A stretch of DNA of 64,000 nt from Pseudomonas azadiae. Lineage in GTDB: Bacteria; Pseudomonadota; Gammaproteobacteria; Pseudomonadales; Pseudomonadaceae. The stretch covers positions 62,001 through 126,000 of the forward strand of contig NZ_JAHSTY010000002.1 in assembly GCF_019145355.1 (NCBI RefSeq), in the 5' to 3' direction. How positions within the stretch are numbered: position 1 is the stretch's first letter; the number at the start of each line of letters is the position of its first letter. A model generated the notes under the pieces. It searched no databases and had not been told where the DNA came from. It saw only the letters and a program-made list of their open reading frames with translations. Shown piece by piece: positions 56,815-63,899 of the stretch. A program made the translations under genes and the position numbers.

Positions 56815-57126
56815 ATGACGCAAGAACCTAGCACCCTCTATGCCAAGCTGCTCGGTGAAACCGCCGAAATATCCTGGAAGGAGCTTGAGCCGTTCTTTGC
56901 CAAGGGTGCCCTATTGTGGGTCGACGCCCGACTGGATTTGATCGAGGCCGCCGAAGGAATGGCCGAAGACAAGCGTGACAAAGTCGCCGCCTGGCTGGCC
57001 TCGGGCAACTTGGCCGAAGTGTCTGCCACGCGGGCGCTGGACCTGGTGGAGCGCGATCCGAGCTTATGGGCGGTGGTGGTTTCGCCGTGGATACTGATCC
57101 AGGAAAGGGCAGTGCCTGCGCAGTAA
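56815..57126 (+). CDS. DUF2288 protein
   Basis: A 103-residue cytosolic protein of unknown function (DUF2288). It is all-helical in appearance, with the family blocks ISWKELEPFFAKGALLWVD and WVDARLDLIEAAEGMAEDKRDKVAAWLASG. An AAGGTGA site precedes the ATG. It is divergent from braC. The following 250 bp (57127-57378) have no gene that I can support. Confidence 0.85.
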   Translation: MTQEPSTLYAKLLGETAEISWKELEPFFAKGALLWVDARLDLIEAAEGMAEDKRDKVAAWLASGNLAEVSATRALDLVERDPSLWAVVVSPWILIQERAVPAQ

Positions 57127-57378: not shown

Positions 57379-58470
57379 ATGCCGTCAGCGCTGCCCCTCT
57401 CAGCAAAACCCTCGCACCAGTTGCTTTACCTTATCTACGGTCAACAAGAAGTTTACCGGCGCGAAGCCAAGTTCAGCATTCTCACCGCCCTGGCGCAGCT
57501 CAAGCCCGGCGAGTCGCTGTGCATCCGGGTCATGACTGACCGGCCTCAGGATTTCACCGGCTGGCCGGTGGAAACCCTGGCGCTGGACGAGCAGACCCTG
57601 ACCCGGTGGCAGGGTGACAACGGTTATACCCACCGGCGCAAGGCCTGTGCGATTGCGCAGGGATTGAAGCTGGCGGACAAGACGCTGTTTGTCGATACCG
57701 ACACATTGTTCCTCAAGTCCCCGCAGGGCGTATTCGAACTCATCGCGCCTGGCCAGTATGTGATGGACGAATTCGAATACGACTGGAGCTATGTCTGCAA
57801 TCGCCCGGATTACCTCAAGCTGGGCACGCACCTGCGCGCCCATGGCGTGTCTGCGAGCAACAGCTTCAGGCTCTACAACAGCGGCCTGTGCGGTGTGTGT
57901 GACACGGATACGGCGCTGCTCGACACCTCGATCAGCCTGATCGACGCATGGACCGAGGGTTCGTTCGACATCCACACCATCGAGCAAGTCGCCATTTCCT
58001 TCGCGATGCATGGCAAGACGGTCCGCGAGTCCAGCAAGTGGGTCTATCACTATTACGCCGAGAAGCGCTTCTTCCACGCCATGCAGGCGCATTTTTTCAA
58101 CCTTTATGGTGAAGCCTTCGGTCCCGAATTGGTCGCGCGTTGCCTGGACGTACCTCAGGTCAAGCCCACGCCTTCCGCCTGGCAGCGGCTGCTGATCAAA
58201 TGGAAGCTGCGCAATCAGCGCAAACATCTGAAGAGGGTTGGCCGCGACTTGCTCTATGGCAGCGCGGCGCCTGAGAACCCTTATTACGATGTGTGTCGAC
58301 AGGGCTGGTGGGAATCGGCCTCGCGTGAAATCCACAGATGGGATAAGGCTGAGCAGGAGGCGTTCTTCGGTACGCACGAGGCGGCGTGGCCCAAGCAGTT
58401 GCCCCGGCCTGCAAAGGCCGCCGACGAGCACGCCATCGTCGCCTACCTGCACCAACGACGGGCCCAATGA
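57379..58470 (+). CDS. GT-A fold glycosyltransferase-like protein
   Basis: A 363-residue cytosolic protein. The stretch GYTHRRKACAIAQGLKLADKTLFVDTDTLFLKSPQGVFELI (about residues 90-125) contains a DxD motif (DTDT) in the context used by GT8-like enzymes to bind metal and nucleotide sugar; LYNSGLCGVCDTD and a later HTIEQVAISFAMHG also fit a GT-A fold. The C-terminal third is basic and helical. No carbohydrate genes are adjacent; it is convergent to the tubulin-like gene. Substrate unknown. Confidence 0.72.
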   Translation: MPSALPLSAKPSHQLLYLIYGQQEVYRREAKFSILTALAQLKPGESLCIRVMTDRPQDFTGWPVETLALDEQTLTRWQGDNGYTHRRKACAIAQGLKLADKTLFVDTDTLFLKSPQGVFELIAPGQYVMDEFEYDWSYVCNRPDYLKLGTHLRAHGVSASNSFRLYNSGLCGVCDTDTALLDTSISLIDAWTEGSFDIHTIEQVAISFAMHGKTVRESSKWVYHYYAEKRFFHAMQAHFFNLYGEAFGPELVARCLDVPQVKPTPSAWQRLLIKWKLRNQRKHLKRVGRDLLYGSAAPENPYYDVCRQGWWESASREIHRWDKAEQEAFFGTHEAAWPKQLPRPAKAADEHAIVAYLHQRRAQ

Positions 58471-58506: not shown

Positions 58507-60684
58507 TCAGCCGGTCTTGCCAGTGTGGTTGTTCAGCGAAATAACCTTGGTTTTGCCAATGCGATGGCGGTAGATCTCACGCAGGTACTTGATCGCCTTC
58601 TTCACGCAGTCCCGTGACAGGCGAATATCGTTGATCGACACAAACTTGTCCTTGTCGTTGATCAGCTCGCGGTACTTCTTCTCATACATCGGCTTGATCG
58701 CGTACCAGTTGGTATCGAGGATCTTTGCCGGGTTCTCGAACTCATTGAGCAGTTCGTCGATGCGGTCTTCGTCGAAGTCCTCGTGGATGATGAAATCCAG
58801 GATCGAGTTGTCCAGCGTGTCGTCAAAGCGGTACGGGTTGCGCGCAAAGCAGCGTTTGATAAACGCCACGATCAAGGTGAGGAAGTCGTCCGACAGGCAC
58901 GGGCTTTTCGCGATCAGGGTGGTCAGCGACAGGTTGGCCGAGGCGCCGATCACCAGGGCGTAGCGCTTGAGGGTGGTGTTGGGGAACAGGCTGTTGAGGT
59001 GAGTCTTGAGCCGGTTCAGGTCCATATAGGACAGCTTGTAGTCCTTGGGCAAGGACACGATGGACACCACCGACGAGCAGTTCTTGAAGAAGTGCAGGTC
59101 ATGCAGCGCCGCTGCGTCGTAACCGGAGTTCTTGTACTGCTCCAGGGACGCCTTGTAGCGCTTGGACTCGATCGGCAGCAGGCTGATGCCTTCGATGGCC
59201 TGGGTGACCTTGTTGAAGTGCGGCAGGTCGATGGAACGGAAGAACAGGTCATCGATGTTCAGGCGCTGTGGTTCTTTTTCGAACACCTTGAATTTGTCGC
59301 TGGACGGTGCCGGCGTTTCGGGAACCACGGACTCGGCGTAGGCAATCGCCACCGGGCCGGCCAGGCTCATGAACAGGTCGTTGGCATCCAAGCGGATGGT
59401 TTCGCCGATGTCGATACCGGCGCGCCGGAAGTAGTTCTGGTCGTAGTCGGTGGTCACGGCCTGGGCGGTGAGGATGTTGAAGATCTGCTGGGAGATGTAC
59501 TGGTTGGCGTGTTTTTCCATGGCATTGACGTCAATGTTCTGGATATTGCCGTCATCGCTTTCTTCGGCATAACGCATGATGTCGTTGGAGATCAGCATCA
59601 TCGCGTTCCACGGGCGGATACGCCCTTTCACACTGGCTTCGCTGCTGTCTTCATTATCGAAGTTGTATGAGAAGTCCCATTCTTCCGAGAGGTATTTGCA
59701 CAGCAGCCGTCCGGCGTTGATGTGCAGCGCTTCGGACATTTCGCTGCGGTGGTCGGAGATATTCGGCAGCACGCAGATGCCGCTGGTGAAGATCGGCTCG
59801 AATACAAAGGCGTGGCCGCTCTTGCTGTCGTGCTCGTCGGCGGGCTTGGTGTCGAACGTCTTGTTCATGTACGAATGCTGCTGCGCCAGGCCGAATTCGG
59901 AGGCCATGCCCGAGCCAGTACCGCCGCCGGCGCTGAAGATCGAGAAGTACAGGCGCGACTGGTTGGCCTTGATGCCGCAGGAGTCGATCAGGTACGAGTG
60001 GATCATCTTCCAGTCGGGGCTGGAAAAACGCTGGGTGTCTTTGTTGAGGATGATCTTGGCCAGGTACTGCCCCAGGATCGGCGCGTTACCGGCGCCGCCG
60101 GCATGGACTTCCGACAGGTCCATGATTTTCATCTTGCTGTAGTCGCGCAGGAAACCGCTTTTTTCGCCCTTGCGCGAGAAGCGGATGCGCCCGGCGATGT
60201 CTTTGTCCAGGTCGCCCAGCATCACCAGCGGTTCCACCAGGAACACCGGTTTGCTCGCCTTGCCGCTGCCCAGGCGCAAGTTGTTGCGTAGCCACTGGGC
60301 CGGGCTGTAGCCCTTGTCCGGCGACTTGTCTTCGTTGCTGAATTCGTTCAAGTAGAACTTGCGCGCGTTGTACACCAGTTCCGCCACGTCCAGCGCGATG
60401 TTCGACCCGCAGCGGCCCAGGCCGATCAGGCACACCGAGGGAAATTCCTGTTCGCTGCGCGGGTCGCTGTCATCTTCCAGATGGGGCGGGCGCGGGAACA
60501 CCATGTCGCGCAGGCCGTCGAGGTTTTCGAGGATGCGGTCGGTATTGGTTTCGGTGAAGTACAGGTATTGCTGGGTGGCCAGCGGGCGGGCAGTGCTCAA
60601 TGACTTTGAACCTGAGGGATTGTCCGCAGGCGCTGGGAGCAACACGTCGGATACCACGGTGGCAGAGCTATTTTTAGAGGTCAT
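58507..60684 (-). CDS. Large chromosomal tubulin/FtsZ-like GTPase
   Basis: A 725-residue protein. Residues 84-95 (VCLIGLGRCGSN) resemble the first nucleotide loop of FtsZ/tubulins, HAGGAGN (194-200) a T3-like loop, and FSAGGGTGSGMASEFG (250-265) matches the tubulin/FtsZ signature GGGTG(S/T)G. The protein is twice FtsZ length: about 80 N-terminal residues of low complexity precede the GTPase fold and about 460 residues follow, with a very basic end (YLREIYRHRIGKTK). It resembles the Tubulin_2 type of family rather than FtsZ. The ATG at 60684 (MTSKNSS) is preferred over a GTG at 60789. It lies alone, next to a c-di-GMP gene. GTP binding and assembly are inferred. Confidence 0.75.
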   Translation of the reverse strand: MTSKNSSATVVSDVLLPAPADNPSGSKSLSTARPLATQQYLYFTETNTDRILENLDGLRDMVFPRPPHLEDDSDPRSEQEFPSVCLIGLGRCGSNIALDVAELVYNARKFYLNEFSNEDKSPDKGYSPAQWLRNNLRLGSGKASKPVFLVEPLVMLGDLDKDIAGRIRFSRKGEKSGFLRDYSKMKIMDLSEVHAGGAGNAPILGQYLAKIILNKDTQRFSSPDWKMIHSYLIDSCGIKANQSRLYFSIFSAGGGTGSGMASEFGLAQQHSYMNKTFDTKPADEHDSKSGHAFVFEPIFTSGICVLPNISDHRSEMSEALHINAGRLLCKYLSEEWDFSYNFDNEDSSEASVKGRIRPWNAMMLISNDIMRYAEESDDGNIQNIDVNAMEKHANQYISQQIFNILTAQAVTTDYDQNYFRRAGIDIGETIRLDANDLFMSLAGPVAIAYAESVVPETPAPSSDKFKVFEKEPQRLNIDDLFFRSIDLPHFNKVTQAIEGISLLPIESKRYKASLEQYKNSGYDAAALHDLHFFKNCSSVVSIVSLPKDYKLSYMDLNRLKTHLNSLFPNTTLKRYALVIGASANLSLTTLIAKSPCLSDDFLTLIVAFIKRCFARNPYRFDDTLDNSILDFIIHEDFDEDRIDELLNEFENPAKILDTNWYAIKPMYEKKYRELINDKDKFVSINDIRLSRDCVKKAIKYLREIYRHRIGKTKVISLNNHTGKTG

Positions 60685-60888
60685 TGTGCGCCATGTGCCT
60701 GGGCGGATGGCTAAAGAAATCAAGGGGCCATCACGCAATGGGTGTTCGCGACTTTTCAGTGCGTCCTTGTCCTGGACGAGCGGGTTCACCCCCTGATGTG
60801 TTCAGGGAAACCCAGGCCGGACTCTGATGGATCGGCCGTTCGTCGGGGTTCTTTAGGCAAATGATGGCGAAATGCCAAAGTTTAGGCG

Positions 60889-63144
60889 TCAGCGAATTGG
60901 CCCTGCCATGGAGGTGGGGCTGTCGCGGCTCGGGGTGGGCTCTGATGCCGAGCTGGTGTCCTTTGCAGCCGACGCGCCAGGCAGGTTGCGCAAGTTGATA
61001 CCCTGGATCACGCCGATGATATCGCTGGCCGCCACCGCCGGGCTCAGCAGGTAGCCCTGGACGAAATCACAGCCATGCTTGAGCAACAGCTCGAACTGCG
61101 CCTGGGTTTCCACGCCTTCGGTGACCACCTGCAAGTGCAGGGTGTGGGCCATGCCGATAATCGCCTGGACGATCTCGATATCGGCCATCGACTTGGGAAT
61201 ATCCTGGATAAACGAGCGGTCGATCTTCAAGGTATTGAGTGGCAGTCGTTTGAGGTAGGCGAGGGACGAGTAGCCGGTGCCAAAGTCGTCGATCGCCAGC
61301 GATACGCCCAGCGCGCGGATTTGCCGCAGCAGTGCCAGGGTGCTGCTGATGTTGCCCATCAGCGCATGTTCAGTCACTTCCAGTTCCAGGCGGGTGGCGG
61401 CAATGCCACTCAAGCGCAGCGCGTCTTCGATTTCGTCCGCCAGCTCATCGCGGGCCAGGTTCAGGGCCGAACAGTTCACCGACATGGTCAGTTCCGTGTA
61501 GCCACGGTCAGACAGCAGGCTCAGGTCATGACAGGCCTGGCGCAGCACCCAATGATCCAGCTCGGCGATCAGCCCGTTGCTTTCAGCGATGCCGAGAAAC
61601 CGGTCCGGTCCCAGCAGCCCATGCTGGGGGTGTTGCCAGCGCACCAAGGCTTCCAGCCGCGTGACCTTGCCCTGCTTCATGTCGAAGATCGGCTGATAGA
61701 ACAGCACCAGTTGATTGCGCGCGCGCAGGGCGCCGCGCAGTTCCTCTTCCAGTTGCAATTCCAGGGACGCGCGGGTTTTCAGGTTGGAGCTGAAGAAGTT
61801 CAGGCTGTTGCGCCCCATGTCCTTGGATTGGTACAGCGCCAGGTCGGCGGTTTTCAGCAGCTCCTCGCAGGTCAGGCCATCATCGGGGAACAGGCTGATG
61901 CCGATGCTGGTGGTCATCACCATGCGCCGTCCGGCCAGTTCGATGGGCTCTTTCATCTGCTGCATGATGCGCTGAGCCAGGTGCCGGGCTTCGTCGCGGT
62001 GGTGGATGCTGATCAAGATGCAGAACTCATCGCCGCCAAACCGCGCAACCACATCGGCGTGGCTGCGCACCGAGCCTTTGATATGCCCGGCCAAGACAGT
62101 GAGCAACTGGTCGCCGGCGTCATGCCCAAGGCTGTCGTTGATGCGTTTGAAGTGGTCGATATCAAGGAAGATCACCGCCATCATGCCGTGGGAGGCGGTT
62201 TTATCGGCGAGCTTCTCCGCGAAGATCTGGTTGAAGCCCCTGCGATTCAGCAGGCTGGTCAGGGCGTCGTAGTGGGCCACTTGCTGCAGTGAGGCGCGAG
62301 CCTGGTCGAGTTCGCTGAGCAGGGCATTAACCCGGCGCAAATCACGTTCCTTGTGTTGCAGCTTCTTGTCGGCCAAGGCGGCGCTGATGCTGCTGCCGAT
62401 CACCAGCAGGGTGATGACGGCCACCGACAGGCCCAGTTGGATGGGGTTATTGCCCGCCGGCAACGACAGGTCCGCGCCGGTGGGAACGATCAGTTGCATC
62501 GCCGCCATGCCGGTAAAGTGCATGCTCAGTATGCCCGCGCCCAGCACCAGGCTGGCGGCGTATTTGAGCAGTTGATGGAACACGCCGGTACCGGTGCGCA
62601 AGTAGCTCGACAGCAACAAGGCCGCGAGGCTTGAGCCCATGGCGATACCCACCGAAGCCATGAACAGCCCCGGCTCAAAATACACCTGGGCCTGGGAACG
62701 CATGGCCGACATGCCCACGTAGTGCATCAAGGCGATGCCAAGCCCCATCCAGACCGACGCGAGCAAATACTGATGCAAGCGCAGGGTGGAATGACTGAGG
62801 GTCTGCATGGCGAACAACGAAGCGATCAGGGCGATCAGCAAGGACACGAACGTCATCACCAATTCGTAGTGGATCGCAATGGGCGCCTGGAAGGCCAGCA
62901 TGCTGATGAAGTGGGTTGACCAGATTCCGCCCGCCAGGCAACCGGCGCCGAGCCAGCGCCAGTGGCGCCGCGCGGTGGGGTCCTCGACATGGCCGACGCG
63001 TTCAGCCATGTCCAGCGTACCGAAACCCGCCGCGCAGGCGACCAGATAGGCCAGTAGCACCAGGAACGGGTTATGACTGCAATTGAGCAATAAATGCCCG
63101 TGTTCTGGAAGCTCAGTAAAAAAATGCAGACCCAGCCATTCCAT
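60889..63144 (-). CDS. MHYT-GGDEF-EAL c-di-GMP turnover protein (MucR-like)
   Basis: A 751-residue inner-membrane protein. The MHYT sensor (seven helices; STHFISMLAF, LMHYVGMSAM and SMHFTGMAAM are the three metal-binding motifs) is followed by a GGDEF domain with intact RFGGDEF (about residue 375) and an EAL domain (LEALVRWQHPQ, then the DDFGTGYSSL block). Both activities look possible. The architecture matches P. aeruginosa MucR, which regulates alginate through c-di-GMP, and also NbdA, so the orthologue is not certain. The ATG at 63144 with an AGGG site is preferred over 63159. Confidence 0.9.
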   Translation of the reverse strand: MEWLGLHFFTELPEHGHLLLNCSHNPFLVLLAYLVACAAGFGTLDMAERVGHVEDPTARRHWRWLGAGCLAGGIWSTHFISMLAFQAPIAIHYELVMTFVSLLIALIASLFAMQTLSHSTLRLHQYLLASVWMGLGIALMHYVGMSAMRSQAQVYFEPGLFMASVGIAMGSSLAALLLSSYLRTGTGVFHQLLKYAASLVLGAGILSMHFTGMAAMQLIVPTGADLSLPAGNNPIQLGLSVAVITLLVIGSSISAALADKKLQHKERDLRRVNALLSELDQARASLQQVAHYDALTSLLNRRGFNQIFAEKLADKTASHGMMAVIFLDIDHFKRINDSLGHDAGDQLLTVLAGHIKGSVRSHADVVARFGGDEFCILISIHHRDEARHLAQRIMQQMKEPIELAGRRMVMTTSIGISLFPDDGLTCEELLKTADLALYQSKDMGRNSLNFFSSNLKTRASLELQLEEELRGALRARNQLVLFYQPIFDMKQGKVTRLEALVRWQHPQHGLLGPDRFLGIAESNGLIAELDHWVLRQACHDLSLLSDRGYTELTMSVNCSALNLARDELADEIEDALRLSGIAATRLELEVTEHALMGNISSTLALLRQIRALGVSLAIDDFGTGYSSLAYLKRLPLNTLKIDRSFIQDIPKSMADIEIVQAIIGMAHTLHLQVVTEGVETQAQFELLLKHGCDFVQGYLLSPAVAASDIIGVIQGINLRNLPGASAAKDTSSASEPTPSRDSPTSMAGPIR

Positions 63145-63282
63145 AGCATGCCCTGTCATAGCGTCACGTCACTGCCAGAGGCGATGACCTATGCGGTCGA
63201 GTATAGAAGCCTGGCGGAATTTTCCATCGCTAATGGCACTTTGCTTTGAATTATTTTGGCATCTACCGCATAGCGCCGGGTG

Positions 63283-63648
63283 CTAAGCGCTGATGGGCAG
63301 CTCCAGTTCGAAAGGGGCTTCCAGGGGCGCCAGGCCAAAGGCGGCGCGAGCAGCGTCACAATCGACATTCTGCACGCCCTGGCTCCAGGACGAATCAAAC
63401 TCGCGGCAGACACTGGAGCGTTCTTCGTAAATCGTGCAACGGGTTGCTTGGCCCACTTCACCCTCGAGGCTGCAGCAGCGCGCGGGTTTCTGGTCGGTGC
63501 CGATCATGGCCACGCGGGTGTGGTTGATCTGCACCACCAGGTCGTCGGGCACCGTGCCCCCTGACGAGGCGCACTCACCCCAGAAGAAAGACACACGAAA
63601 GTATGAACAGCAGGCACCGCAATTCAGACACGGACTGGCTTCGGACAT
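63283..63648 (-). CDS. YkgJ-family cysteine cluster protein
   Basis: A 121-residue protein with the zinc or iron-sulfur binding cluster CLNCGACCSYFRV at the N-terminus and further cysteines (RCCSLEG, RCTIYEERSSVCREF) typical of the YkgJ/CxxCxxCC family. Function unknown. The ATG at 63648 (MSEASPCLNCG) is chosen; an upstream in-frame ATG at 63657 adds three residues. The 250-bp gap to the next gene shows no feature other than promoter-like AT bias. Confidence 0.85.
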   Translation of the reverse strand: MSEASPCLNCGACCSYFRVSFFWGECASSGGTVPDDLVVQINHTRVAMIGTDQKPARCCSLEGEVGQATRCTIYEERSSVCREFDSSWSQGVQNVDCDAARAAFGLAPLEAPFELELPISA

Positions 63649-63899
63649 GGGCGTCATCGATTAGGAAGGTAAGTAGGGGGACTACGGGAAGGCTCGCCAT
63701 TCTATCCGGGCCATGGCCGTTGGGAAGGGGGGCATGTACTTATATTTTCGTAGGCAAAGTGCCGCAGCGCCGGGTCAAATCATGCCCTATCAGCTTTACG
63801 AATCATTACAGACAAGCGCCCTTCGCCTGACTATGTTGCAGGTACCGGGCGGGATGCATCGGGCATCGCAGCTCTCATAACAATAAAAGAGACGGACCC

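Follow-up and report, generated by a model that had tools for sequence, protein, structure and literature searches.

A chromosomal FtsZl2-type tubulin relative of Pseudomonas azadiae, probably an accessory filament protein beside FtsZ

The genome of Pseudomonas azadiae (assembly GCF_019145355.1) carries, besides an ordinary FtsZ, a gene for a large and divergent member of the tubulin/FtsZ superfamily. It lies in a 64,000-nt stretch of contig NZ_JAHSTY010000002.1 (positions 62,001–126,000, forward strand), the whole of which we term ‘the window’, and occupies positions 58507..60684 on the minus strand. The open reading frame (ORF) starts with ATG at 60684, stops at 58507, and encodes a protein of 725 aa; a GTG upstream, at 60789, is an alternative start that would give 760 aa. 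In our reading, which we hold with a probability of about 70%, this protein is a divergent chromosomal member of the ‘FtsZl2’ type, and serves as an accessory filament protein, dependent on guanosine triphosphate (GTP), beside the normal FtsZ. A preliminary description of this DNA recognized the protein as tubulin-like, and rightly so, but went on to propose a ‘new class’ of bacterial tubulin-like GTPase. The family has been known since 2010 (FtsZl2; PMC2875224), and nothing about it is categorically new. What we add is a probable FtsZ-type C-terminal domain (predicted), signs of transfer between lineages, a measure of selection, the history of the locus, and the rejection of a link to a neighboring GGDEF gene.

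The protein belongs to the tubulin/FtsZ superfamily by its motifs. At E ≤ 1e-3, a homologue search gave 661 relatives, with the best 120 listed; two more searches, from divergent members, brought the distinct relatives listed to 279. These are 56–98% identical to the window protein and, together with it, form the 280 sequences in which motifs were counted. The T1 loop GLGRCGSN (residues 88–95; 60400..60423, minus strand, as are all features within the gene) reads G.GRCGSN in 280/280. The T3-like loop HAGGAGN (residues 194–200; 60085..60105), aligned by hhalign, with low confidence, opposite GLGAGANPEVGR of FtsZ, reads HAGG[AS]GN in every sequence as well. The T4 signature loop SAGGGTGSGM (residues 251–260; 59905..59934) keeps SAGGGTGSG in 279/280, the exception being one relative, P0044, with SAGGGTGSR. 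All three loops are at the residues first reported for them, and the loss of GGGTGSG among orthologues, suggested at that time as a check on the idea, was not seen. T6 and T7 follow in the right order: a T6-like SND (residues 366–368; 59581..59589; 279/280), matched to IPNE of FtsZ, and the T7 loop RLDAND (residues 431–436; 59377..59394), matched to NVDFAD and containing the candidate catalytic acids D433 and D436. Extended by one residue, the T7 motif RLDANDL (431–437) is intact in 280/280. Both equivalences with FtsZ rest on manual alignment, as does the presumed core helix H7 between them (about residues 389–410; 59455..59520), which coincides with a low-confidence predicted helix at 386–411.

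Profile comparisons point the same way, faintly. The Pfam search that the preliminary description called for gave a mixed answer: the protein's top two matches, to Tubulin_2 (E = 0.0012; 18.6 bits, cut-off 27; residues 197–380) and to Tubulin (E = 0.0024; 18.6 bits, cut-off 33), both take in the T4 loop, but both fall under the cut-offs of these models. At E ≤ 0.1, Tubulin matches 51 of the 53 aligned members and Tubulin_2 matches 48, with a best E of 3.1e-5. When the full-length family profile was compared by hhalign with FtsZ, the T4 loop was the sole stretch to align locally (P 0.011–0.012). The comparison set held 30 gammaproteobacterial FtsZ and three Tubulin_2 proteins, taken as stop-to-stop frames and hence with extra residues; eight sub-regions of the family compared with three of FtsZ gave nothing beyond the T4 loop. 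No match to the window protein was found in NCBIfam, PADLOC or PHROGs, and phmmer found nothing relevant among PDB sequences. On the other side, searches of the whole genome with the Tubulin model (E ≤ 1) and with the Tubulin_2 model (default limit) each failed to list the window gene. The 280 sequences are, besides, fairly close relatives (56–98% identity), so that conservation of the motifs is, by itself, no proof.

FtsZl2 goes back to Makarova and Koonin (Biol Direct 2010; PMC2875224), who described it from PFL_1302 of Pseudomonas fluorescens Pf-5. Where that paper deals with the family, it reports all of the motifs and no associated genes, predicts filaments, and finds no relative for the C-terminal region; the species key to its alignment gives Pseudomonas fluorescens, Marinomonas sp. 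and Chromobacterium violaceum. We file the window protein under FtsZl2 because its testable features agree with these passages: the genus Pseudomonas, the GGGTGSG loop, the presence of T1, T4, T6, T7 and H7, a C-terminal region of ~300 aa, the lack of associated genes, and occurrence in both Pseudomonas and Marinomonas beside a normal FtsZ. No difference was found, PFL_1302 being compared by description only; the assignment fits, and we infer orthology from it. The named relatives are gammaproteobacterial among the matches listed, and the genome searches covered this class only. They include Pseudomonas, Ectopseudomonas, Atopomonas, Cellvibrio, Rheinheimera, Arsukibacterium, Alishewanella, Alkalimonas, Marinomonas, Celerinatantimonas, Agarivorans and Corallincola, and some (P0107, P0207, P0222 and P0253) bear the UniRef names ‘Tubulin like’ or ‘Tubulin-like protein’.

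The likeness to other members of the superfamily is more limited. In the same paper (PMC2875224), the first example of FtsZl1 measures 1051 aa, and a coiled coil and neighboring genes, vWA among them, are given for this family; a 2023 survey treats Tubulin_2-type proteins, in the part that concerns them, as divergent FtsZ-like sequences (PMC9871819). The window protein shares with FtsZl1/Tubulin_2 a chromosomal location, large size, distinctness from FtsZ, and the weak sequence match over 197–380. It differs in falling short of the Tubulin_2 cut-off and, unlike FtsZl1, has T1, T4, T6 and T7 all present, as in FtsZl2. The Tubulin_2 proteins found here occur in open frames of 1111–1540 aa, and none of the vWA, GTPase and kinase genes of the FtsZl1 context occurs among the four window neighbors scanned with Pfam. 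With FtsZ the protein shares the sequence of loops, T1-T3-T4-T6-T7, and FtsZ gives the best structural matches to its probable C-terminal domain; it differs in length (725 versus 401 aa), in its long inserts and helical extension, in its locus, and in matching Tubulin below the cut-off. TubZ and PhuZ are shorter and are carried by plasmids or phages; no relative of the window protein was found in the plasmid and phage records searched. In the open-licence literature in PMC we found no work on the function of FtsZl2: the string occurs in PMC7327170 only as part of the name of a mutant, FtsZL272E, and in other papers containing ‘FtsZl’ the passages with that string concern FtsZl1.

The most likely domain plan begins with a variable tail (residues 1–40). 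Next in this plan comes a GTP-binding domain (about 78–300) that contains T1, T3 and T4 as well as long inserts, and residues from about 364 to 445 supply T6, H7 (the core helix) and T7. A further 289 aa follow T7. AlphaFold2 gave no usable model of the GTPase core: run at full length on 53 sequences (the window protein and 52 of 200 relatives), it reached a mean predicted local distance difference test score (pLDDT) of 42 and a predicted template modeling score (pTM) of 0.29, likely because the relatives are too alike, and fold searches with this low-confidence model found no coherent match. Residues 470–725, modeled with 85 of 279 relatives, fared better (mean pLDDT 71; pTM 0.49) and are predicted to be mixed alpha/beta. 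FtsZ gave the best structural matches to this model over about residues 472–584, with scores that are weak but consistent; against a viral fold library, the best E was 0.067 and no tubulin appeared among the named of the 50 matches listed. The C-terminal region thus seems to hold a probable FtsZ-type C-terminal domain (about 472–584; 58933..59271), the fold being taken from a low-scoring predicted model, and then an extension predicted to be helical (about 594–708; 58561..58905), which carries a basic amphipathic segment toward its C-terminus. The hydrophobic moment of the protein peaks there, at residues 687–704 (0.75; mean hydrophobicity –0.30). The ‘large C-terminal domain’ first attributed to the protein is probably, for about half of it, a domain of the FtsZ type (on weak scores), the helical extension making up the rest.

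How might such a protein act? In FtsZ and tubulin, T7 acts across the subunit interface. We take a GTP-dependent polymer to be most likely because the invariant T7 fits hydrolysis of the GTP of the neighboring subunit. GTP would be placed between two subunits of the polymer, with the T7 acids D433 and D436 of one completing the site of the next; GTP would drive head-to-tail assembly, and its hydrolysis disassembly, as they do for FtsZ and TubZ. The helical extension would probably bundle the polymer or tether it, to the membrane or elsewhere in the cell, and the protein would work alone, as an accessory element of the cytoskeleton, outside of division. GTP binding, assembly, tethering and the cellular role are all steps that we infer. 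The same fold could instead work without polymerizing, as a nucleotide-dependent switch or scaffold whose inserts and extension block or replace the filament interfaces. The length of the inserts suits such a switch, T1 and T4 being 165 residues apart compared with 88 in the genome's own FtsZ, and so does conservation that is high over most of the length of the protein (mean column identity of the family alignment, 67%), as expected of one with many fixed contacts. Against it stands T7, the loop that works at the interface, which is invariant throughout the set, and we consider a switch unlikely.

The gene was described from the outset as chromosomal and as separate from the cell-division FtsZ, and both points stand. 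It is carried on a contig of 2.36 Mb, and tblastn with the protein found no match in 72,556 plasmid records or 50,697 phage records. Ordinary FtsZ, 401 aa long, is encoded on another contig and is the sole match above the cut-off of the Tubulin model in the whole-genome search; it was found, too, in 20/20 other carriers tested. With a normal FtsZ in the same genome, the FtsZl2-type protein is unlikely to have division as its main task. Scans for promoters and terminators gave little more than shuffled sequence did (1 versus 0.7, and 4 versus 3.0, respectively).

The gene is frequent in Pseudomonas and sparse elsewhere. Of the genomes sampled, 42 of 59 in the genus carry it, counting the window's own, as do 2 of 36 from the rest of the order; P. 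fluorescens FW300-N2E3 (L096) is one of the carriers found. A sample of the whole order, which overlaps with these, has it in 16 of 293; family f20 has it in 9 of 121. The class-wide sample of 369 yielded two true cases, one of which is the window's own genome (i.e. 1 of the 368 others); a further match, in genome G331, was dropped as belonging to an unrelated protein, which we take to be GlnE. At six loci of family f26, that of Marinomonas (L116, L118, L120, L121, L124 and L125), one or two in-frame stops were reported at the tubulin matches; ORF calls there give open frames of 674–702 aa, and the stops probably lie at the edges of the matches.

Purifying selection on the gene is strong. We took the median ratio of nonsynonymous to synonymous substitution (dN/dS) to the window over 79 of 80 loci (L031–L109), leaving out genes cut by contig ends. 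For the tubulin gene this is 0.060 (79 loci), close to that of livH (0.056; 72) and below that of braC (0.112; 73), the MHYT-GGDEF-EAL gene (0.182; 70), the DUF2288 gene (0.191; 73) and a 363-aa ORF (0.169; 7), all neighbors that are described below. The protein evidently matters to its hosts, because it is present in most of the sampled Pseudomonas genomes and is constrained like livH and more than braC.

The tree suggests that the gene has passed, on its own, from one gammaproteobacterial lineage to another; yet many Pseudomonas have it in one and the same position. The tree has 56 rows and a midpoint root: 44 of the 279 listed relatives, chosen because they are named, the window protein, and 11 genome loci. 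In it, G129, a member of another order, is nested in a Pseudomonas clade (19 rows; support 100/99), Cellvibrio falls with Rheinheimera and its kin (14 rows; 100/99), and Paraglaciecola falls among Marinomonas (4 rows; 100/99). Celerinatantimonas is probably inside Marinomonas, by one fork of 88/85 only. The case of G129 is weakened by its source, a single genome bin with 3% contamination and a flagged long branch, and Atopomonas, which is far from the other Pseudomonas-type rows and joins a very long branch, P0121, may be misplaced. The discordance of the tree is the better evidence for transfer; identity to the window protein, set against identity of the FtsZ proteins, is a mere hint, because the variable linker of FtsZ lowers its figures. 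The tubulin-like protein is the more similar of the two in G129 (76 versus 66%), in five f26 genomes (68–70 versus 59–60%) and in four f20 genomes (74–75 versus 70–73%), and the less similar in eight Pseudomonas (78–88 versus 84–94%) and in two f14 genomes, G071 (59 versus 66%) and G537 (59 versus 71%, for part of FtsZ only).

A patchy distribution, apparent transfers and the lack of a fixed partner are also what one might expect of a single-gene anti-phage or other conflict system that, for instance, poisons phage tubulin spindles or, following infection, FtsZ. Several things make this improbable. The slow evolution is unexpected for a defence gene; there is no match in PADLOC or PHROGs and none on the plasmids and phages searched; and a two-pattern scan of viral contigs gave 90 pattern matches, none of them a relative. 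Moreover, Pseudomonas that differ widely in identity (L031, L061, L097, L131 and L142) all carry the gene at the locus with braC and DUF2288. We return, then, to an accessory filament protein. A self-contained filament, possibly equipped with its own C-terminal tether, is suggested by a gene that has no partners and is nonetheless retained after transfer. The fuller proposal, that a complete FtsZ-type subunit with inserts and a tether of its own makes one transferable gene both filament and anchor, with a conserved job other than division in most of the sampled Pseudomonas, is attractive but tentative, and we regard it as somewhat less probable than not. A tubulin relative that is chromosomal and has no partner genes, in Pseudomonas that are easy to handle in the laboratory, lends itself well to studies of the bacterial cytoskeleton.

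The lack of partner genes bears on the last of the early suggestions, that the protein is tied to cyclic di-GMP by the gene beside it. In the window, the neighbors, assigned by Pfam, are a DUF2288 protein (56815..57126, plus strand), an MHYT-GGDEF-EAL protein (60889..63159, minus strand) and a CxxCxxCC zinc/iron-chelating protein (63283..63657, minus strand); between the first of these and the tubulin gene, and convergent with the latter, is the 363-aa ORF (57379..58470, plus strand), which has no Pfam match. The ORF was detected at 7/79 orthologous loci and is perhaps a recent addition. Pseudomonas loci that have the landmarks place the tubulin gene between a major facilitator superfamily gene, with rapA beyond, and braC/livH (names that we presume from the sequences; locus genes were called by a simple ORF chooser rather than by a gene finder).

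In favor of a protein that controls cyclic di-GMP or the envelope together with this neighbor, a GGDEF-EAL gene lies within two genes of the tubulin gene in three lineages. Near the window species, the MHYT-GGDEF-EAL gene was detected at 70/79 orthologous loci. Among ten loci of the Marinomonas family, an ammonium-transporter-PAS-GGDEF-EAL gene is downstream at four and upstream at three, and was not found at three (L140, L160 and L163); its domains were read by Pfam in L129, the others being 70–80% identical to that gene. In G129, a PAS/GAF-GGDEF-EAL gene lies two genes downstream. The sensor parts of the three proteins differ, however, and in three called genes on each side, within reach of the contig, no GGDEF-EAL homologue occurs at 9/9 f20, 2/2 f14 and 6/6 outlying Pseudomonas loci. 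Six f20 neighbors scanned with Pfam are an ABC transporter, a PhyH protein, a sugar transferase, a symporter, a decarboxylase and one without a match.

Also against the partnership is a comparison with Pseudomonas loci that lack the tubulin gene, of which we took 20, from 20 of 21 listed genomes. Of these, 17 have braC and DUF2288, and 11 keep a homologue of the MHYT-GGDEF-EAL gene (48–88% identity; the 48% match, in L217, may be another gene). Conversely, five of seven control loci that bear the tubulin gene, chosen to include such cases, are without the GGDEF-EAL gene (L097, L098, L108, L131 and L142). Since the two genes are independent in Pseudomonas, the neighbor at 60889 is part of the locus and not of the system. 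No partner gene was found to recur across lineages, the locus itself being conserved within Pseudomonas and within Marinomonas. We reject the partnership on this synteny, which largely refutes it, and consider it the least probable of the alternatives, and very improbable.

A few details of these loci are worth recording. In the Marinomonas family, the ammonium-transporter fusion gene is downstream of the tubulin gene in L129, L139, L141 and L165 and upstream in L161, L162 and L164, on the same strand in all seven. In G129, a 640-aa ORF without a Pfam match lies directly downstream of the tubulin gene (L130, 5001–6923). Among Pseudomonas loci without the gene, none of the anchors was detected at L218, L219 and L221, and L205 and L206 have a clean empty site, with only about 345 bp between the GGDEF-EAL homologue and DUF2288. 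In two close relatives, L203 (3428–7660) and L204 (3492–7727), the interval between DUF2288 and MHYT-GGDEF-EAL instead holds, at the site of the tubulin gene, an ORF of 1410–1411 aa with a ToxA_N (dermonecrotic toxin N-terminal) domain, as if the site takes alternative single genes.
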